Positions 15,729 to 47,742 are shown, counted from the first letter of the stretch. The stretch: DNA of 64,000 nt from Iocasia fonsfrigidae (GCF_017751145.1 NZ_CP046640.1:3638137-3702136); one strand, 5' to 3'. Translations and numbers: made by a program. Notes: generated from the sequence alone by a model not told the origin.

Positions 15729-15980
15729 GCCGTTAACATTTCTAATAGATATATCTATTTGTTGTAATATTACAAGTCTAACATCTCTTTACAGCTAATA
15801 TTTAATGCAACTTAATCATATTGTTCAATAACGTTACCGGTAACGTTATCGTTATTTATATTATACCCTGCCCAGCATTATTCTAACAAACACCAATAAA
15901 CTGATTGACAACTAATTATCTCCTGTTAGATCTGTTTATAATAAATTTTCTGACTTATTCTTAAATTTTTAATCTTTTTT
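15729..15980. repeat. Duplicated regulatory segment, copy 2
   Basis: Counterpart of 10118-10350. One end coincides with the stop codon of the araC remnant (15979-15981), which suggests the original segment was an araC-gene terminus plus a neighbouring promoter. The rest of 15630-15728 is A/T-rich with nothing I can name. Confidence 0.75.
15828..15890 (-). promoter_or_regulatory. Perfect 22-bp LacI-type palindrome with promoter
   Basis: Two 11-base arms, ATAACGTTACC (15828-15838) and GGTAACGTTAT (15839-15849), make a perfect CG-centred palindrome. Just upstream on the minus strand is TATAAT, with TTGTTA about 18 bp before it. Same arrangement as copy 1 at 10198-10258. It points toward gntR but is 300 bases away, so it may be a relic. 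Confidence 0.55.
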
Positions 15981-27773: not shown

Positions 27774-27808
27774 AAAAAATGAGGAAGATTTTTGTAAAAA
27801 TCTTCCTC
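27774..27808 (-). terminator. Intrinsic terminator of the kdu operon
   Basis: Perfect 13-bp stem GAGGAAGATTTTT / AAAAATCTTCCTC (27781-27808) with a two-base loop, followed on the minus strand by ATTTTTTTG. It begins 25 bases after the kduD stop. Confidence 0.85.
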
Positions 27809-35084: not shown

Positions 35085-35684
35085 TCAGTGAAACAGACCT
35101 AATTCCTGCAAATCTCCCCTTAACTGTACCGGGCTTTTAAATTGTATTGTCTTAATCCCAAAATCCTCAGCGGCCAGAAGATTATCCTCCATGTCATCAA
35201 TAAACACAGTTTCTTCAGGGGACAGTGAATAATTTGCCAGTAGATAGCGGTATATCTCCGGCTCCGGTTTTACAGCATTAATCTCTGCCGAAATAACCAG
35301 TTCATCAAAATTATTAAAAAAATCATAATTTGCAACCAGTTTAAAGGCCTCTAAGTGGAAATTTGACAAAACATAAAGACTATATCCCCTGTCTTTGAGT
35401 TCCTCCAAAATCCCAATGCTCCCTTGGATAGGCTGCAATATCTCCTCCCAGTCTCTGAATATATCACTAACCTCACTGCCAAAACCATGCCGTTTTGTTA
35501 AGATTTCTACAGCCTCCTGCTGACTAATACTACCCCTGTCAAGCCCTATCCACTCCTCACTCTTGAAAACAGAGTTATATAATTTATTAATTAATTCTTC
35601 ATCATCATATTTCTTTTCCAGATATCCCCTGGGGTCATAAGATAAAAGCACATTCCCTAGGTCAAAAACAACATTTTTTATCAT
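35085..35684 (-). CDS. HAD-superfamily phosphatase (YihX type)
   Basis: Small-molecule phosphatase, 199 residues. Motif I is FDLGNVLLSYDP (nucleophile Asp; the second Asp of DxD is replaced as in YihX relatives), motif II SNFH, motif III KPEPEIY, motif IV FIDDMEDNL. It is the last gene of the lplA-ABC operon (22 bases after the ATPase gene). Substrate unknown; a link to the ABC cargo is possible but not shown. Confidence 0.85.
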   Translation of the reverse strand: MIKNVVFDLGNVLLSYDPRGYLEKKYDDEELINKLYNSVFKSEEWIGLDRGSISQQEAVEILTKRHGFGSEVSDIFRDWEEILQPIQGSIGILEELKDRGYSLYVLSNFHLEAFKLVANYDFFNNFDELVISAEINAVKPEPEIYRYLLANYSLSPEETVFIDDMEDNLLAAEDFGIKTIQFKSPVQLRGDLQELGLFH

Positions 35685-35706
35685 TACTAAACAACTCCTT
35701 TTTTAA

Positions 35707-36429
35707 TTAATCCATTAAATAAAGGTCAGCAATCTCCTGTAAAATACTATATATCCCCTTATCAGCAAGCCCCCTCTCCCCCTGAGGTATTCTTATTTTA
35801 AACTCTTTTTCTATCCCGGCCGGTTGACCTGCCAGAAAACAGATCCGGTCAGCCAGTAAAACAGCCTCTCTGGGATCATGGGTAATAAGCAAAATCGAGT
35901 AGGCTTCTTCCTGCCAATTCTTTAGTAACAACTCACGTAGTTTTATTTTTAACCCTGTATCAATAGATTTAAAGGGCTCATCAAGCAAAAGTAAATCAGG
36001 TTTAATTGAAAGGGCCCGGGCAAACTCCAGGCGCTGTTTCATACCACCACTCAATTCCCCTGGGAAACTATCCCGAAAATCAATTAAGCCTACCCCTTTT
36101 AAAAGATACTCCCTCAGAGCTGCCCCTTCCTTTTCAGTGAGAAAGTTCTGCTGAACAAAGGTAAGGTTATCTTCCACACTCTTCCATGGTAAAAGCCTGG
36201 GCTCCTGAAAAACACAAGCCAACCTCAGCCCCTCCTTTAAAGTTAATTCGCCGACATCCCTGTCAAGTAAACCAGCAATAATATTAAAGAGTGTTGTTTT
36301 ACCACTGCCAGAAGAACCAATAAAGGCTACAATCTCTCCATCTTTGAGTTCAAAGTTAATATCAGCCAGCACTTCATAGGCATTATATGATTTGGCCAAG
36401 TTTTTAATACTAAGTAAATTAGCCGACAT
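35707..36429 (-). CDS. ABC importer ATPase (NitT/TauT/SsuB type)
   Basis: Cytoplasmic ATPase, 240 residues. Walker A IGSSGSGKTTLF, Q-loop CVFQEPRLLPW, signature LSGGMKQRLEFARAL, Walker B LLLLDEPFKSID, switch His LLITHDPREAV. All catalytic residues are present. It overlaps the permease gene by 11 bp. The subfamily covers nitrate, taurine, sulfonate, thiamine-precursor and other small-molecule importers; the lplA link suggests lipoate or a related acid. Confidence 0.9.
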   Translation of the reverse strand: MSANLLSIKNLAKSYNAYEVLADINFELKDGEIVAFIGSSGSGKTTLFNIIAGLLDRDVGELTLKEGLRLACVFQEPRLLPWKSVEDNLTFVQQNFLTEKEGAALREYLLKGVGLIDFRDSFPGELSGGMKQRLEFARALSIKPDLLLLDEPFKSIDTGLKIKLRELLLKNWQEEAYSILLITHDPREAVLLADRICFLAGQPAGIEKEFKIRIPQGERGLADKGIYSILQEIADLYLMD

Positions 36430-37192
36430 CTGGCTCCCACCTCATTACATATTTCTTTAAAGGCTTAATAATCAAATATTCAAAAGAAAACATAAGGACT
36501 ATCAGTACAATAGACCAGGCAAAAAGCCTATCTGTCTGCAAATTGTTATTGGCAACACTCAGGGCAAAACCTATCCCACTGGAACTCCCCACAAACTCAG
36601 CAAACACTGTCGACTTCCAGGCAAAAGCCAGACCAATACTGATAGCTGACATCAGGTGAGGTAGGAGGGAAGGAAGATAAATATCAAAAAAAATCTGTTT
36701 CCTGCTGCAGTGATAAAACCTGGCCATTTCAACAAGCCCATAATCTATATTACCCAGCCCATGGTAGATATTTATAAAAACAACTGGAAAACTAACAATA
36801 AAAATCAGAAAGATAGGTGTTAAGTCATCAGCAATACCAAACCAGATAACTGCCAGAACCAGCCAGACTACTGGTGGAATGGTCTGCATAATTGTTATCA
36901 GTGGCCTGAAAAAAAGCCTCCAGAACTTACTGTAACGTAGAAAAAAAGCAAAAACAAGCCCGGCAATAATCGCTCCTGAATAACCAATCATCGTACGTTT
37001 AACTGTAATTAAAATAAAAGTGACCAGTATTCCACTTTCCAATAGCTCAATTAAGACCTGAGCAGTTTCCAGTGGAGAAGGCAGAATTAAAGAAGAAAAT
37101 CTGCTGGATAAACCTCCCCATAAAAGAAGCACTGCCAGAACACCAGCAGTGCCGACAGCTATTTTAAAAAAACTAGAAGTAAAATGATTCAT
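36419..37192 (-). CDS. ABC importer permease (SsuC/TauC type)
   Basis: Membrane subunit, about 257 residues, six segments. I prefer the ATG at 37192, 11 bases after AGGTGG; the longer GTG start (37207) lies inside that ribosome site. Family landmarks: SRFSSLILPSPLETAQVL near the N-terminus, and the EAA loop MARFYHCSRKQIFFDIYLPS at about 160. It overlaps the binding-protein gene upstream and the ATPase gene downstream, a tight operon. Confidence 0.88.
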   Translation of the reverse strand: MNHFTSSFFKIAVGTAGVLAVLLLWGGLSSRFSSLILPSPLETAQVLIELLESGILVTFILITVKRTMIGYSGAIIAGLVFAFFLRYSKFWRLFFRPLITIMQTIPPVVWLVLAVIWFGIADDLTPIFLIFIVSFPVVFINIYHGLGNIDYGLVEMARFYHCSRKQIFFDIYLPSLLPHLMSAISIGLAFAWKSTVFAEFVGSSSGIGFALSVANNNLQTDRLFAWSIVLIVLMFSFEYLIIKPLKKYVMRWEPDVG

Positions 37193-38126
37193 CAGGTAAT
37201 TTACCACCTATCATCTCTGGGTATAATGTCATAATATCCCTAAAATACCTCTCAATTAATTTGTTCTCTTCTAAAACAGGATAACAATCCAGTTTTACCC
37301 TGTTAAAAGACTTCAGGATTAATTGAGCAGGCATACCATAGTATTTGGCTGCCAGTTCTGCCGCCTCTTCAGGATTGTTATTCACCCAGTTTACACCTAT
37401 CTTATAATAATCATTAAAACTATCTGTTAACTGCTGATTTTCCTCTAAAAAGTTATTACTAACAAAAAGCCCTACAAATGGTATCCTACCGTCACCATTA
37501 TGGTGTTTAGCCCATTCGTCTTGAATATTTATTGATAAGCTGGCCTTATCGTTATTACTCAAAATCTTGGTCACTAGTGGTTCAGGGAGTAAAATGGCAT
37601 CTAATTTACCCATCATAAATGTCCTGGCCCCATTTTGTAAGGGCTTATAAACCAGGTTAATCTCTTCAGAGGCAATACCCTCTTTATCCAGAAAATACCG
37701 GACTAGAAAATCCAGCGGTCCCCCTAACAAAGGCAGGCTGAGTGTCTTACCCTGCAGGTCCTCCCAGGTATCTGCCTCAAATCCATTTGTCAGAACATAA
37801 TCTATTGCCCAAATGTTGGCATTAAGCAATTTAATATTAATCCCTTTATTAAAAACCTTGGCTCCAACATTAACACCAGTCAACATCATATCTATCTCAT
37901 TTTTAGCAATCAAAGAAATAGCCCTATTATGGTCAGCTGATATCTTTACATCAATCTCTATATCCTCACCTAGCACACCTTCTTCTGCCATCCATAACAC
38001 TGGTAATGCCCCTACTGTTGTTGGTGTCTGCACTTTTATCTTTTTTATTCCCTCTGCATTAACAGCAGTAGTCATTACAAATACAATAAGCAGACTTAAC
38101 ACTAAAAACAACTTTTTTCTTCCCAT
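37173..38126 (-). CDS. ABC importer periplasmic binding protein (SsuA/ThiY-like)
   Basis: Receptor of about 317 residues, start at ATG 38126 with GGGAG 8 bases upstream. Signal peptide MGRKKLFLVLSLLIVFVMTT...NAEG with no lipobox Cys. The mature part has KIKVQTPTTVGALPVLWMAE, the NMT1/THI5-like fold opening, then KNEIDMMLTGVNVGAKVFNK and WEDLQGKTLSLPLLGGPLDF. Ligand unknown. It lies 23 bases from lplA (38150-39142) and overlaps the permease gene, so it likely binds something that the ligase uses. Confidence 0.88.
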   Translation of the reverse strand: MGRKKLFLVLSLLIVFVMTTAVNAEGIKKIKVQTPTTVGALPVLWMAEEGVLGEDIEIDVKISADHNRAISLIAKNEIDMMLTGVNVGAKVFNKGINIKLLNANIWAIDYVLTNGFEADTWEDLQGKTLSLPLLGGPLDFLVRYFLDKEGIASEEINLVYKPLQNGARTFMMGKLDAILLPEPLVTKILSNNDKASLSINIQDEWAKHHNGDGRIPFVGLFVSNNFLEENQQLTDSFNDYYKIGVNWVNNNPEEAAELAAKYYGMPAQLILKSFNRVKLDCYPVLEENKLIERYFRDIMTLYPEMIGGKLPDESFYF

Positions 38127-38149
38127 TAAGATCACTCCCTTATCAAAAG

Positions 38150-39142
38150 TTATATATTCTTCTCCTTTAGCCAGGAAACAATATCAGTTATTATTTCCTT
38201 ATTTTGGTCAGGATTAATCTTCTTAATTCTTTTACTTATTTCCTCAATGTCAAAAATACAGCCTTTGAGCATTTCAGCAATTTTTCTTATTAATTCAACC
38301 TCCATCGCATCAGAGTAAATAACCGCCTCTTCAATAATACCCCTGCTGGCCTGTAGGCAGAGCTCTAACCCCCCCCAGGGGAATCTTTTCTCAAAAACAA
38401 CATTGAAATCCGGGGAGCTGCCGAACAACCATTCCCAGGAGGAATATTTCTCATATAAACCCTTTAATTTAGAAATATCTTCAGGCTGTAAATACTCAGT
38501 CTGTCCTTTACCACCATACTCCTCTAAAAAAGAAGCCTCCATAGCCTGTTTAAGCATTTCAAGATTTAAATCAGCCTTCAACTCTTTCAGATTAACCACC
38601 CTGGAGCGAACCGAATCAATCCCCTTGGATGCTATCTTCTCAGCTGATACCTGAAGGTATTTAAGCATCTGAGTAAAGTCAGTATCAAGTAATAGTGTGC
38701 CATGATGATATGCCTTGTCAGCTGCAAAATAAAAGGCATTCCCTGAAAACTTTTTGCCTTCAACAAGCAGGTCATTCCGACCGGAAAACTCAGCCCCAAT
38801 TCCCAACTGTTTAACAGCCTCAATAATAACTCTCAACTGTCTATTTAGATAATAATTAGCACGCCCCATAATAAATGTAAAATTAAGATTACCAAGGTCA
38901 TGGAAGACCGCACCACCTCCTGATAAGCGGCGGGCCAGCTTACCTTCATCTCTTTTTAGGACCTTATAATTACATTCCTTCCAGGCGTTCTGATTACGTC
39001 CGATAACCACTGTCCGCTGATTCTGCCAGAGATAAAGCAGAACTTCATCCTGGCTAATGCTCTCCAACAAAAATTCTTCCAGAGCCAGGTTATACCAGGG
39101 ATTATTACTTAAAGAATAGATTATTTTTGTTTTAAGCGGCAT
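38150..39142 (-). CDS. lplA: Lipoate-protein ligase A
   Basis: Activates lipoate with ATP and attaches it to lipoyl domains; about 330 residues. I start at ATG 39142 with GGGGG 7 bases upstream. N-terminal catalytic domain: YLWQNQRTVVIGRNQNAW, the key loop LARRLSGGGAVFHDLGNLNF, lipoyl-AMP Lys in EGKKFSGNAFYF, and YHHGTLLLDTDF. The C-terminal accessory domain covers about 245-330. First gene of an operon with a NitT/TauT-type importer and a HAD enzyme. It has its own promoter and a perfect palindrome at the start point. Confidence 0.93.
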   Translation of the reverse strand: MPLKTKIIYSLSNNPWYNLALEEFLLESISQDEVLLYLWQNQRTVVIGRNQNAWKECNYKVLKRDEGKLARRLSGGGAVFHDLGNLNFTFIMGRANYYLNRQLRVIIEAVKQLGIGAEFSGRNDLLVEGKKFSGNAFYFAADKAYHHGTLLLDTDFTQMLKYLQVSAEKIASKGIDSVRSRVVNLKELKADLNLEMLKQAMEASFLEEYGGKGQTEYLQPEDISKLKGLYEKYSSWEWLFGSSPDFNVVFEKRFPWGGLELCLQASRGIIEEAVIYSDAMEVELIRKIAEMLKGCIFDIEEISKRIKKINPDQNKEIITDIVSWLKEKNI

Positions 39143-39164
39143 TGATAAACCCCCTGACAATTTT

Positions 39165-39215
39165 AAGTAAATAATTTACTTACTAATATTATACCACTTT
39201 TATATCTCCAGACAA
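39165..39215 (-). promoter_or_regulatory. Promoter and palindromic operator of the lplA operon
   Basis: TTGTCT (39210-39215) and TATAAT (39188-39193) on the minus strand, 16 bp apart. AAGTAAAT-A-ATTTACTT (39165-39181) is a perfect palindrome right at the expected start point. It does not match an operator that I can name. Confidence 0.65.
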
Positions 39216-42702: not shown

Positions 42703-44424
42703 CTAGTTCTTAGCACGTGCTTTAAAATGTGTATGCAGCAATTTGTGTGATTTATCAGCAAGTGGTTCCCCCAGGAAGTCATCATATAACTTCTGAACCA
42801 TAGGGTTTTCATGTGATTTACGGACATACTTGTTTTTATCTATACTGGCAAGGCCTTCAGCCCGTTTATCCTTTTTCTCATTATTAACAGGCAAGGGCTG
42901 ACCGCCACCACCAACACAACCATGAGGACAGGCCATTATTTCTATCCAGTGATATTTCGAATTGCCTGCCCTGACTTCATCCAGGAGTTTAGCAGCATTA
43001 CCAAGGCCACTGGCTACAGCAACATTTACTACCAGATCACCAATCTCAACCTCCGCCTCTTTAATACCACGAATTCCAAGATTAAGACGTTCCAGTGGTT
43101 CACCAGTCAATTTCTCTTTAACTGTCCTTAAAGCGGCTTCAGTTACACCACCAGTAGTACCAAAGATAGTACCAGCCCCTGTTGACTTACCCATCAGTTC
43201 ATCATATTCATCATCTGCCAGATTATTAAAGTCAATACCAACTTCTTTAATCATTCTGGCCAGCTCTCTGGTAGTCAGAACTGCATCTGTATCTTTATAA
43301 CCACTATCAACCATCTCTTCCCTGTCTTTTTCAAACTTCTTGGCAGTACAGGGCATTACTGAAACAGTATATATATTGGCTGGGTCTATATCAGATTTCT
43401 CTGCATAATAGGTCTTAACCAGTGGTGAAAACATTTGCTGTGGTGACTTAGCAGTAGAAACATTATCCAGCAAATCAGCATAATTGTGTTCAGCATATTT
43501 AATCCATCCCGGACAACAGGAAGTAATATGGGGCAATGGTTTATTATTTTCAACCTTATCAAGGAATTCATAACCCTCTTCCATAATTGTCAGATCAGCA
43601 CTAAATTCAGTTGAAAAGACCCTGTCAAAACCGAGTTTACGCAGGGCATTAACTAATTTGCCAGTAACTACTGTCCCTGCTTCCAGCCCAAACTCCTCAC
43701 CAATAGTAGCCTGAATAGCTGGGGCAGTCTGTACTATGACATGTTTATCCGGGTCTTCCAGGGCATGCCAGACCTTATCTATTTCACTTACTTCTGTGAT
43801 AGCCCCTACAGGACAAACCGTGGCACATTGACCACAGTTAGCACAGTTAATTTCACTCTGTGGTAGATCAAAAGCTGTCGTAACAACTGAATCAAAACCA
43901 CGTTTACTAAATTGTAGGGCAGAAACCCCTTGAACCTCTTCACAGACACGAACACAGCGCCCACAGAGAATACATTTGTTGGGATCCCTCTTTAAAGCAG
44001 GCCCCCTATCATCTAAAGGAAGATTCCTTTTTTCACCTTCTAAAGGTTCAATTTCTTCACGTCTAATCCCCATTTTATAGACTATATCCTGCAGTTCACA
44101 AGTTCCATTCCTGTCACAGCCCAGACAGTCATTGGGATGGTTAGCTAACAACAATTTAACATTCCGGCCCCTGGCCCTTCTGGCCCGGGCACTACGGGTA
44201 CTTAAGTTCATTCCATCAGCAGCCGGAGTGACACATGAAGCTACCAGGCTGTCGTTATCAAGATTTTCTACCACACAAACACGGCAGGAACCGTGAAGGG
44301 TTAAATCAGGATGATAACACAGGGTTGGTATATCAATACCTACTTCGCGGGCCGCTTCCAGAATGGTAGTACCTTCTTCGACCTGAATCTCCTGTTCATC
44401 TATAGTTAATGTTATTTTACTCAT
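42703..44424 (-). CDS. hydA: [FeFe] hydrogenase catalytic subunit (electron-bifurcating, HydA)
   Basis: Catalytic H2-evolving subunit of the HydABC complex, about 573 residues; cytoplasmic. I start at ATG 44424 (MSKITLTIDE) because the longer frame overlaps hydB. N-terminal 2Fe-2S plant-type ferredoxin domain (CYHPDL...GSCRVCVV), His-Cys 4Fe-4S site (HPNDCLGCDRNGTC), two 4Fe-4S sites (CILCGRCVRVCEE, CANCGQCATVCPVG). H-cluster: ITSCCPGWIKY, VMPCTAKKFE and EIMACPHGCVGGGGQP. His replaces the more common Gly in CPGGC. C-terminal SSU-like tail. Last gene of the hyd operon. Confidence 0.95.
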   Translation of the reverse strand: MSKITLTIDEQEIQVEEGTTILEAAREVGIDIPTLCYHPDLTLHGSCRVCVVENLDNDSLVASCVTPAADGMNLSTRSARARRARGRNVKLLLANHPNDCLGCDRNGTCELQDIVYKMGIRREEIEPLEGEKRNLPLDDRGPALKRDPNKCILCGRCVRVCEEVQGVSALQFSKRGFDSVVTTAFDLPQSEINCANCGQCATVCPVGAITEVSEIDKVWHALEDPDKHVIVQTAPAIQATIGEEFGLEAGTVVTGKLVNALRKLGFDRVFSTEFSADLTIMEEGYEFLDKVENNKPLPHITSCCPGWIKYAEHNYADLLDNVSTAKSPQQMFSPLVKTYYAEKSDIDPANIYTVSVMPCTAKKFEKDREEMVDSGYKDTDAVLTTRELARMIKEVGIDFNNLADDEYDELMGKSTGAGTIFGTTGGVTEAALRTVKEKLTGEPLERLNLGIRGIKEAEVEIGDLVVNVAVASGLGNAAKLLDEVRAGNSKYHWIEIMACPHGCVGGGGQPLPVNNEKKDKRAEGLASIDKNKYVRKSHENPMVQKLYDDFLGEPLADKSHKLLHTHFKARAKN

Positions 44425-44453
44425 GGTACGAGACACTCCTTTATTATATATTT

Positions 44454-46256
44454 TTAACCCTGGGAAATAGCATCTACTGGACATTTCTGGGCACAGGCAC
44501 CACAGGAAATACAGATATCACCATCGATCTGATAACTCTCTTTTGGTTTGCCCGAAATAGCATCTACTGGACAGACCTTAGCACACATTCCACAACCTAC
44601 ACAGGTCTCTTCATCAATTACATAGGCAGCAGCTAGCCCCTGACAGACACCAGCAGGACATTTTTTGTCCTTAATATGGGCTTCATATTCATTACGGAAG
44701 TACTTAATTGTACTCAACACCGGATTAGGGGCAGTCTGTCCCAGCCCACATAGGGCTGTATCCTTAATATGCTCACCCAACTCCAGGAGTAATTCGATAT
44801 CCCCCTCTTTACCCTCACCTTCACAGATTCTGTTTAAAATTTCCAACATTCTTTTAGTACCTTCACGACAGGGAGTACATTTCCCACAGGACTCACTCTG
44901 GGTAAAATCAAGGAAGAATTTAGCAACATCAACCATACAGGTCCCTTCATCCATTACCACCATACCACCTGAACCCATCATAGCCCCAATCTCTTTTAAA
45001 GAATCATAATCAATAGGGAGATCAAGGTAATCAGAAGTAATACAGCCACCTGAAGGTCCACCAGTCTGAACAGCCTTAAACTTCTTACCAGATGTTAACC
45101 CACCACCAATATCAAAAACAATCTCACGTAAAGTAATTCCCATCGGAACCTCCACAAGACCAGTATTATTAATCTTACCAGTCAGGGCAAAAACCTTGGT
45201 TCCTGAACTATTTTCTGTCCCTACACTACTAAAAGCCTCTGCACCTTCATTAATAATGTAAGGGACATTTCCAAAGGTCTCAACATTATTAATATTGGTT
45301 GGTTTACCCCATAAGCCTTTATTAGCAGGGAACGGTGGTTTCGGCCTGGGCATACCCCTTTTACCTTCAATAGAAGCCATTAAGGCAGTCTCTTCGCCAC
45401 AGACAAAGGCCCCGGCTCCTTTCTTAATATGAAGGTCAAAACTAAAATCACTGCCAAAGAGATTATCACCCAGCAAGCCTAGTTCTTCAGCCTGTTCAAT
45501 CGCCTTTTGCAGCCTGGTAATTGCCAGTGGGTACTCGGCTCTTACATAGACATAACCTTCATCAGCCCCAATAGCATAAGCAGCAATAATCATCCCTTCG
45601 ATCACTGCATGGGGGTCACCTTCCAGCAGACTGCGGTCCATAAAAGCACCTGGGTCACCCTCATCAGCGTTACAGATAATATACTTTTTATCACCAGCTG
45701 CTTTCCTGGTAAAATCCCATTTTAAACCTGTTGGGAACCCCCCTCCACCACGTCCGCGAAGGCCGGAGTCTTTAACCTCCTGAATAACCTCTTCTGGGGT
45801 CATTTCTGTAATCGCCTTACCCGCTGCTTCATAGCCACCGCTGGCAATATATTCTTCAATACTCTCCGGGTCTATTCGACCACAATTAGATAATACTATC
45901 CTTCTTTGTTTTTTATAGAATTCTATATCCTGATATGCTGGAATACTCTCTTCACTGATCGGTTCTTTAAATAATAATCTATCAACAATTCTACCCTTTA
46001 AGAAATGCTCTTCAACTATTTCAGCTACATCCTCTTCCTTAAGCTGACAGTAAAAGACCCCTTCCGGGTAAACAATCATAATTGGTCCCTTTTCACAGAA
46101 TCCATGACACCCTGTCTCAACTATCTTTATTTCTTTACTTAGATCATGCTCTGCCAGCTCATCTTCCAATACTGTTTTTATCTTTTTAGAACCAGAAGAA
46201 ACACAACCTGTACCAGTACAGATTAATACATGGGAACGATAAATAGACTGGTCCAT
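44454..46256 (-). CDS. hydB: Bifurcating hydrogenase, NADH- and FMN-binding subunit (HydB, NuoF-like)
   Basis: Subunit of 600 residues that binds FMN and NAD(H) and splits electron flow to ferredoxin and HydA. Residues 1-95 are a thioredoxin-like 2Fe-2S domain (ICTGTGCVSSG; ETGCHGFCEKGP). The NuoF core has GRGGGGFPTGLKWDF and NADEGDPGAFMDRSLLEGDP, with 4Fe-4S ligands in ESCGKCTPCREGTKRM. The C-terminal pair of 4Fe-4S motifs is CVGCGMCAKVCPVDAI and CISCGACAQKCPVDAI. It follows the small ferredoxin-like gene by 2 bases and precedes hydA. Confidence 0.95.
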   Translation of the reverse strand: MDQSIYRSHVLICTGTGCVSSGSKKIKTVLEDELAEHDLSKEIKIVETGCHGFCEKGPIMIVYPEGVFYCQLKEEDVAEIVEEHFLKGRIVDRLLFKEPISEESIPAYQDIEFYKKQRRIVLSNCGRIDPESIEEYIASGGYEAAGKAITEMTPEEVIQEVKDSGLRGRGGGGFPTGLKWDFTRKAAGDKKYIICNADEGDPGAFMDRSLLEGDPHAVIEGMIIAAYAIGADEGYVYVRAEYPLAITRLQKAIEQAEELGLLGDNLFGSDFSFDLHIKKGAGAFVCGEETALMASIEGKRGMPRPKPPFPANKGLWGKPTNINNVETFGNVPYIINEGAEAFSSVGTENSSGTKVFALTGKINNTGLVEVPMGITLREIVFDIGGGLTSGKKFKAVQTGGPSGGCITSDYLDLPIDYDSLKEIGAMMGSGGMVVMDEGTCMVDVAKFFLDFTQSESCGKCTPCREGTKRMLEILNRICEGEGKEGDIELLLELGEHIKDTALCGLGQTAPNPVLSTIKYFRNEYEAHIKDKKCPAGVCQGLAAAYVIDEETCVGCGMCAKVCPVDAISGKPKESYQIDGDICISCGACAQKCPVDAISQG

Positions 46257-46258
46257 GA

Positions 46259-46633
46259 CTAATTACCTCCTTCATCAAAACGTGCTATTGCTAAATCTTC
46301 TACAACATTACCATTTATCACATGTTCAACAATAATCATTTTAACATCAGCCGGTGTAAGGTTACCATAAGTAACCCTATCCTTCCCAGGCATTTTAACA
46401 TCAAGCAGTGGTTCCTTCTCACACATACCAATACAGCCAGTCTGGGTAACAATTACATCCAAACCCCTTTTATCAATCTCCTTCATGACTGCCTTTAATA
46501 TCTTACGGGCTCCGGCCGCAATACCACAGGTGCCCATCCCAATAATAATCTTGGGGCGCTCACTATTACTCCTCATCTCTAAATCCTTCTGAACCTTACT
46601 TCTTAATTCTCTTAATTCTTCCAGAGATTTCAT
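46259..46633 (-). CDS. Thioredoxin-like [2Fe-2S] ferredoxin (hydrogenase accessory subunit)
   Basis: Small electron carrier, about 124 residues. I start at ATG 46633 (MKSLEELREL) because GGAGG lies 11 bases before it; an upstream ATG overlaps that ribosome site. Cys ligands in MGTCGIAAGARKIL and TGCIGMCEKEPLLDV fit the thioredoxin-fold 2Fe-2S pattern (CxxxA...CxGxC). A gene like this sits in the hyd operons of many acetogens and clostridia as HydD. Next to hydB, 2 bases apart. Confidence 0.85.
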   Translation of the reverse strand: MKSLEELRELRSKVQKDLEMRSNSERPKIIIGMGTCGIAAGARKILKAVMKEIDKRGLDVIVTQTGCIGMCEKEPLLDVKMPGKDRVTYGNLTPADVKMIIVEHVINGNVVEDLAIARFDEGGN

Positions 46634-46634
46634 T

Positions 46635-47186
46635 TTATAAGTCACCTCCATACAGGTCTCTTAATTCTTCATTAAGATTCTTTTCTATCCAATTTAAAAC
46701 AGGGTATTCATTAATCGAAACATCCCCTAATTCAGCCTTAATCTCCTCAGTACTAAATACAAATTCCCGCCCCTCATAAACATGCCGATAAATAAAATCT
46801 ATCTCCGGATTAGTTGTAATCAGGGCAACAATCGTTCCTACAATATCACCCAGTGGGACGCGGTCAATATTGTTATATTCAAAGTAAGCAGTAATCCTGG
46901 TGCCTTTACCCGGTTCTGACTCTATCTTCATATCCCCCTTGGATCTCCTACTGGCCTCCCTAAACAGTGATAGGCCGAGACCAACTTCCCTGGTCTTTCG
47001 CGAAGTAACAAAAGGGTCAACTACTCTACTGATGTCCTCTGACTCTATACCTTTTCCATTATCCTCTATCACAATTATTAACAGATTTTTAGCTATATCT
47101 TCTCTAATAATTAGTTTAATTAAGTCAGCATCAGCTGCAATTGAATTCTGTACTATATCAAGAATATGCAGTGATAATTCCCTCAT
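46635..47186 (-). CDS. Histidine-kinase-like ATPase domain protein in the hyd operon
   Basis: GHKL ATPase of 183 residues without a phospho-acceptor His box or sensor domain. N-box MRELSLHILDIVQNSI, G1 box EDNGKGIE, F-box-like VVDPFVTSRKTREVGLGLSL. The last 80 residues (GDIVGTIVALITTNPEIDFI onward) are extra to the domain. A homologue (HydE in Acetobacterium nomenclature) lies in similar hydrogenase operons, with function unknown. It begins 8 bases after the HydC-like gene. Confidence 0.85.
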   Translation of the reverse strand: MRELSLHILDIVQNSIAADADLIKLIIREDIAKNLLIIVIEDNGKGIESEDISRVVDPFVTSRKTREVGLGLSLFREASRRSKGDMKIESEPGKGTRITAYFEYNNIDRVPLGDIVGTIVALITTNPEIDFIYRHVYEGREFVFSTEEIKAELGDVSINEYPVLNWIEKNLNEELRDLYGGDL

Positions 47187-47194
47187 AAGACCAC

Positions 47195-47686
47195 TTAGAT
47201 ATACTCTTTTAAAATGTCTTTAACTTTTTCTGGTGTCAGCCGCCCATGTGTATCATCATTAATCATCATTACAGGTGCTAAACCGCAGGCCCCTATACAG
47301 GCAACTGTTTCCAGAGTAAATTTCAGGTCTTCAGTAGTCTCTCCATTTTCTATACCCAGTTCATCCTGTACTGCCTGAAGAACCTCTGCCCCGCCACGGA
47401 CATGACAGGCTGTACCCATACAGACTCTCAGTACATTCTTACCCCTTGGTTCCAGGTGGAACTGTGTATAAAAGGTAACAACACCATAGACCTGGCTTAA
47501 AGACATATCAAGGAAAGTGGCTATCTCTTTTAGAACATCCTCTGGCAAATAACCATACTCATCCTGAGCATCCTGCAGAATGGGAATTAGGTATTTTTCA
47601 TCCTTTTCATAACCCTCAAGTATTTCCCTCAATGGAGCCAGATACTTATTTAAGCTTTCCTTTCCTCCTCCACAACTACATGCCAT
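47195..47686 (-). CDS. hydC: Bifurcating hydrogenase, NuoE-like [2Fe-2S] subunit (HydC)
   Basis: First gene of the hyd operon, about 163 residues. ATG at 47686 (MACSCGGGKESLN) with AAGGAGGGG before it; the longer frame is not used. The N-terminal helical part is YLIPILQDAQDEYGYLPEDV. The thioredoxin-like 2Fe-2S domain has CMGTACHVRGGAEVL and CIGACGLAPVMMIND, with four Cys in the NuoE pattern. It transfers electrons between HydB and HydA. Confidence 0.93.
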   Translation of the reverse strand: MACSCGGGKESLNKYLAPLREILEGYEKDEKYLIPILQDAQDEYGYLPEDVLKEIATFLDMSLSQVYGVVTFYTQFHLEPRGKNVLRVCMGTACHVRGGAEVLQAVQDELGIENGETTEDLKFTLETVACIGACGLAPVMMINDDTHGRLTPEKVKDILKEYI

Positions 47687-47742
47687 CTTAATACCCCTCC
47701 TTATTGAATTATATTGGTCAGCAAAATAATACAAAAAAATCC

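Follow-up and report, generated by a model that had tools for sequence, protein, structure and literature searches.

The lipoate-protein ligase gene lplA and the genes of a NitT/TauT-type ABC importer form, judging by their order and spacing, one operon in Iocasia fonsfrigidae, a salt-loving anaerobic bacterium. The importer defines a subfamily that recurs beside lipoylation genes in Halanaerobiales and beside [FeFe]-hydrogenase genes in other Bacillota. The stretch of DNA analysed, here called the window, comprises 64,000 nucleotides; the features of interest are collected in Table 1. We favor the reading that the operon serves lipoate scavenging and that lipoate is the ligand of the importer, and we assign it a probability of roughly 0.38, the identity of the ligand being the weak step. 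The importer would bring lipoate into the cell, where LplA, as the predicted sole lipoylating enzyme, would use it to lipoylate GcvH and the lipoyl domain of a dihydrolipoyl dehydrogenase (Lpd). As a single specific ligand, lipoate is our best guess, a tentative one, and some other nutrient is at least as likely.

Table 1 Features of the lplA-importer region and the neighboring hydrogenase operon (window coordinates)
Feature	Position	Strand	Evidence and remarks
sigma-70-type promoter	39188..39215	-	TTGTCT-16-TATAAT, TG before -10; 10/12 positions; consensus match only
Perfect 9-1-9 palindrome TAAGTAAATAATTTACTTA	39164..39182	.	At expected transcription start, directly behind promoter
lplA, lipoate-protein ligase	38150..39142	-	TIGR00545, LplA-B_cat, Lip_prot_lig_C
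Binding protein (SBP), periplasmic, NMT1/THI5 (NitT/TauT) family	37173..38126	-	Pfam NMT1 33.1 bits (cut-off 20.5)
ABC importer permease	36419..37207	-	BPD_transp_1; 35-base overlap with SBP gene
ABC importer ATPase	35707..36429	-	ABC_tran; 11-base overlap with permease gene
HAD-IA family hydrolase	35085..35684	-	HAD_2; TIGR01509 above cut-off; final gene in tight cluster
NADH-dependent [FeFe]-hydrogenase operon hydC-HATPase-hydB-hydA	42703..47734	-	HydA NF040763 845 bits (cut-off 765)

On the minus strand, promoter and palindrome are followed at tight spacing by lplA, the binding protein (SBP) gene, the permease and ATPase genes, and the HAD gene. Counted from the first-possible starts, the gaps are lplA-14-SBP-(-35)-permease-(-11)-ATPase-22-HAD; with the likelier ATG of the SBP at 38126, lplA and the SBP gene are 23 bases apart. 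For lplA, the start is taken as the ATG at 39142 with GGGGG upstream, and the longest frame begins with TTG at 39160. This is the layout given by the preliminary description, which had placed lplA first, the SBP gene 23 bases on, then overlapping permease and ATPase genes and a HAD enzyme. The SBP carries a signal peptide and no lipobox. The permease is SaoP/SsuC-like and the ATPase TauB/SsuB-like, and both score under the equivalog cut-offs, the permease under all of them. A homologue of the HAD gene likewise lies inside the ABC operon in G004. On its upstream side, lplA is separated from the hydrogenase (hyd) operon of the window by about 3.5 kb.

With 383 bits, LplA exceeds the TIGR00545 cut-off of 280; it has the C-terminal accessory domain Lip_prot_lig_C (67 bits) and is the only protein of the lipoyl ligase/octanoyltransferase fold (PF21948) in the closed 3.93-Mb genome. 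The preliminary description had suggested a search for absence of lipA and lipB, and neither LipA nor LipB/LipM was detected in the genome. The best match to the LipA model (23 bits) fell far short of the cut-off of 310; the two weak matches were rejected, one being MiaB/RimO-like by inspection and the other the biotin synthase BioB. Genes of the lipoyl synthase LipS1/LipS2 often adjoin a ligase gene (PMC10332631), and lplA in the window has no such neighbors. The window lacks a glycine cleavage gene, as had been stated; the single GcvH of the genome is encoded in a complete glycine-cleavage operon, gcvTHPAPB (gcvT-gcvH-gcvPA-gcvPB), at C1:3904.8-3909.1 kb, about 0.22 Mb from the window. A dihydrolipoyl dehydrogenase that itself bears a lipoyl domain at the N-terminus (L116:3839-5551; G000:C1:2499838-2501550) is likely a second target of LplA beside GcvH. 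Since LipA is missing, only one ligase-family protein is present, and the gcv operon and the lipoyl-domain Lpd are there to be served, we predict that the cell must obtain its lipoate by scavenging, as far as searches for LipA, LipB, and LipM can tell. A scavenging role of LplA is thus highly probable.

We surveyed 61 relatives for the SBP and read the orthologous neighborhoods. A close SBP orthologue is present in 26 of the 61, these being of the same order. In nine Halanaerobiales genomes lplA is linked to the importer, and two arrangements occur. It lies upstream of the importer (lplA-ABC) in the window's own family (G000, G001, G004, and G002), with one gene between in G004 and G002, and it follows as ABC-lpd-lplA in three other families (G010, G013, G017, G019, and G036); in G017 the reading frames overlap. 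A downstream lpd was seen in 17 loci (TIGR01350, 558 bits), either lpd or lplA flanks 21 of the 26 orthologous importer loci, and GcvPA is near two importer loci. The preliminary description would have been undermined by a pairing unique to this genome; instead, it recurs elsewhere in two gene orders. Because both main branches of the SBP tree contain lplA-linked importers, the tie is either old or arose twice. Among genomes of the order with a completeness of 90% or more, nine lack LipA and contain GcvH, and eight of these nine have the importer; G012 is a predicted scavenger without it.

Several other genes adjoin these loci. A gene for a DUF2207 membrane protein is part of the importer operon in three genomes of the window's family (L034:9633-11258, L056:591-2237, and L033:5865-7556) and in two of them lies between lplA and the SBP gene. 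A protein of 407-412 aa with a sugar-isomerase fold adjoins the importer in both main branches (L034:5930-7153, L032:5637-6875, and L048:10535-11758). A gene pair for an encapsulin and an encapsulated-ferritin-like protein is found downstream of lpd/lplA in many Halanaerobiales (L036-L055, e.g., L052:11564-12742) and likewise where the importer is missing (L110-L112).

The strongest alternative is that the ligand is some other small nutrient of anaerobic, hydrogen-producing fermenters and that lplA and lpd are its neighbors because of a common physiological state or inherited order. The importer would then work regardless of lipoate scavenging. We place this reading slightly short of an even chance. 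Lipoate makers that lack LplA keep the importer under purifying selection and retain its invariant residues. In five Halanaerobium genomes, LipM adjoins LipA, LplA is missing, and the importer is intact; its dN/dS in Halanaerobium pairs is 0.04-0.12, a range also found in pairs that bear LplA. Three other Bacillota (G063, G069, and G072) keep the importer with LipB-LipA and without LplA. As a stand-in for the ligand pocket, we used the invariant SBP residues S66, H69, R71, G87, N89, W109, D112, GGP-D142-F, R146, P184-E185-P186, W208, and others. These residues are nearly the same whether or not the genome has LplA, and also in two distant orthologues (37-38% identity); a 30%-identical paralogue does not have them.

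The same reading draws support from two genomes in which the importer occurs with the invariant residues and no lipoylation enzyme was detected (G003 and G006; LplA, LipA, and GcvH not over threshold). G003 has two SBPs, and as D112 is changed in both and one sits on a long branch, a changed ligand would fit; the SBP of G006 has not changed. G003 also retains the hyd region and the importer neighborhood on one contig, with lplA gone. A contig end does not hide an LplA in G006, where the upstream sequence is not lplA. In G022 and G025, the contig ends inside lpd, so that the missing LplA is probably an assembly gap. Within the order, we found no significant association between having the importer and having LplA (15/22 vs 4/8, p 0.42), and we therefore treat the p of 1e-4 from a pooled hand tally as confounded by kinship. 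The importer is thus not confined to genomes with a lipoate ligase, and its intact state after ligase loss, where decay is expected, weakens lipoate as sole ligand. What holds of the proposed lipoate uptake system is the predicted scavenger and the recurrent lplA-ABC pairing; lipoate specificity is not supported, given the importers kept in LplA-less genomes. The neighborhood in Halanaerobium further includes many unrelated genes (GlgA, SufBC, and encapsulin), in keeping with a different nutrient. However, a different nutrient leaves unexplained why lplA is linked in two gene orders while most other neighbors change, and why the ABC-lpd-lplA frames overlap in G017.

The second context of the importer bears on both readings. 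Among 84,980 species genomes scanned, 34 importer loci were found. Of the Bacillota genomes not recorded under the name Halanaerobiales, 12 have the importer directly behind hydA (0-50 bases), as the last part of an NADH-dependent [FeFe]-hydrogenase operon (hydCBA) with no lplA nearby, which speaks for a different nutrient. The H-cluster motifs of HydA are intact in all 12 loci. One Aerophobetes contig shows the reverse order, with the importer ahead of the hyd genes. As the hyd-linked importers are nested within the clade of the window's family in the SBP tree, this context may stem from gene loss between hyd and importer. Of these 12 genomes, eight have LplA without LipA, three (G063, G069, and G072) have LipB and LipA without LplA, and one has neither; GcvH is present in 12/12.

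Lipoate could join the two contexts, because aminomethyl-lipoyl-H-protein supplies the dithiomethylamine ligand during H-cluster maturation (PMC11736057), i.e., the lipoylated H-protein builds part of the hydrogenase cofactor. This biochemistry may explain the linkage of importer and hyd genes. Taken together, the lplA/lpd linkage in Halanaerobiales and the hydrogenase-operon membership in other Bacillota would then reflect the first ABC-type lipoate importer, with lipoate uptake wired to hydrogenase assembly via the H-protein and the dithiomethylamine bridge, a combined proposal that we regard as unlikely. HydG was considered as a factor shared with the importer and discarded, as the two show no correlation across genomes.

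Two observations on the hydrogenases themselves were made. Thirteen genomes with HydA (G002, G010, G011, G013, G017, G022, G027, G061, G062, G063, G066, G067, and G069) gave neither HydG nor a HydE-like cross-hit; several of the HydA-positive, HydG-negative genomes are at least 90% complete, and intact H-cluster motifs were checked in the hyd-linked loci (HydA L119-L150). Either CO/CN ligand synthesis is unexplained there or the maturases are divergent. In G032 (L059:2118-9606), a 30%-identical importer paralogue (ATPase-SBP-permease) directly follows genes for an HfsB-like protein and a group B [FeFe]-hydrogenase; no hydrogenase was seen near two other paralogue loci (L057 and L058).

Fold comparison does not single out a ligand. 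The AlphaFold2 model of the SBP (pLDDT 90.9) has 3hn0, PqqT, 3un6, and SsuA as best fold matches and adopts the two-domain fold of the SsuA/TauA/NrtA group (VIA-align Z 25-30, rmsd 2.3-3.0 over 274-286 residues; matches 3un6, PqqT, 3hn0, NrtA, SsuA, and the ThiY-like 3ix1). The ligands of these NitT/TauT matches vary (PQQ, sulfonates, nitrate, and thiamine precursors), and the model matches the whole group, so that fold matches were set aside as a ligand clue. ThiY-like, thiamine-binding, and Thi5 structures among the matches, together with the NMT1/THI5 Pfam family, would suit an importer that supplies an NMT1-type vitamin precursor (thiamine pyrimidine or riboflavin). Yet no TPP, FMN, or SAM riboswitch was found in the window or nine related loci (Rfam, gathering score), which disfavors B1/B2 import; the sole Rfam match, located at the edge of L034, is a c-di-GMP riboswitch. 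Moreover, no thi or rib genes were seen nearby and no equivalog model reached its cut-off, and we hold this supply role to be improbable. An importer for aliphatic sulfonates or other sulfur compounds, the least probable reading by a little, has in its favor the best subfamily match of the SBP (SsuA_fam, 54.6 bits, cut-off 163.5) and the weakly sulfoquinovose-isomerase-like gene (80.9 bits, cut-off 700), i.e., the sugar-isomerase-fold neighbor, that adjoins the importer in several genomes, but all scores are far under the cut-offs, no sulfonate-cleaving enzyme was seen in the annotated neighborhoods, and lplA, lpd, and hyd are left unexplained.

Regulation of the operon was addressed through its upstream region. 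The promoter (39215-39188) is the best promoter match of the region, and the perfect palindrome noted earlier at the start point was found directly behind it, a location that is suggestive. The palindrome TAAGTAAATAATTTACTTA is a possible operator. The window contains seven palindromes with arms of at least 9 and a spacer of 0-3, vs about 1.4 in Markov resamples; hence, one such palindrome alone is not rare. The palindrome did not turn up ahead of lplA in two relatives. A whole-genome search gave a single site with one mismatch, where about 0.06 such sites are expected per genome, and the remaining sites are at control level. This site (L171:3926-3944; G000:C1:704425-704443) is located 53-71 bases upstream of the nifH start in a nif operon, and a regulator common to the lplA promoter and the nif operon is possible. 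No copy was found in the gcv and lpd regions. With nifH as the only further site, a wider regulon was rejected. The window has two further strong intergenic inverted repeats, an 11-bp perfect palindrome at 15828-15849 and one with 13-bp arms at 27781-27808.

Through the survey, what began as a guess from one genome has become a defined importer subfamily whose members recur in two settings, beside lipoylation genes and beside the NADH-dependent [FeFe]-hydrogenase. The soluble binding protein makes the importer quickly testable, and orthologues from LplA-less genomes are natural controls. Should the ligand be lipoate, the importer would tie vitamin uptake to both glycine cleavage and hydrogenase maturation; otherwise, the subfamily would stand as a conserved uptake system in anaerobes that produce hydrogen.

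To our knowledge, bacterial uptake of free lipoate is still poorly known. Our literature search found no paper that describes lipoate import by an ABC system or places an NMT1 importer within a hyd operon, and a minimal-cell model lists the lipoate uptake mechanism as still open (PMC6609329). The role of the window importer would equal that of the proposed ECF-type lipoate uptake, but it is not ECF, since its components include a periplasmic SBP along with a BPD_transp_1 permease. With the NitT/TauT importers SsuABC, TauABC, ThiXYZ, NrtABCD, and PqqT, it shares the fold, the three-gene make-up, and the overlapping SBP-permease-ATPase frames. In contrast to them, it scores under every equivalog cut-off, forms its own subfamily with a GGPLDFL.RY motif, and is linked to lplA/lpd or hydCBA, with no riboswitch or sulfonate genes found. 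Against SaoXPA, the SaoX, SaoP, and SaoA equivalog scores are 19.7/300, 125.9/295, and 142.8/360; against the SsuA/TauABC sulfonate importers, permease and ATPase are far below the cut-offs, as is the SBP; and the upstream TPP/FMN riboswitch that would point to ThiXYZ/RibXY was not found in the window or the nine related loci. The nearest solved sequence (E 2e-14) and top Foldseek match is 3hn0, the Parabacteroides distasonis SBP BDI_1369, which has about 20% identity to the window SBP and was labeled "nitrate transport protein" by its depositors. LplA itself resembles the E. coli-type enzyme in its TIGR00545 score above cut-off, its C-terminal domain, and its RRLSGGGAVFHD and KKFSGNA motifs, and differs in that its gene shares one operon with an importer.
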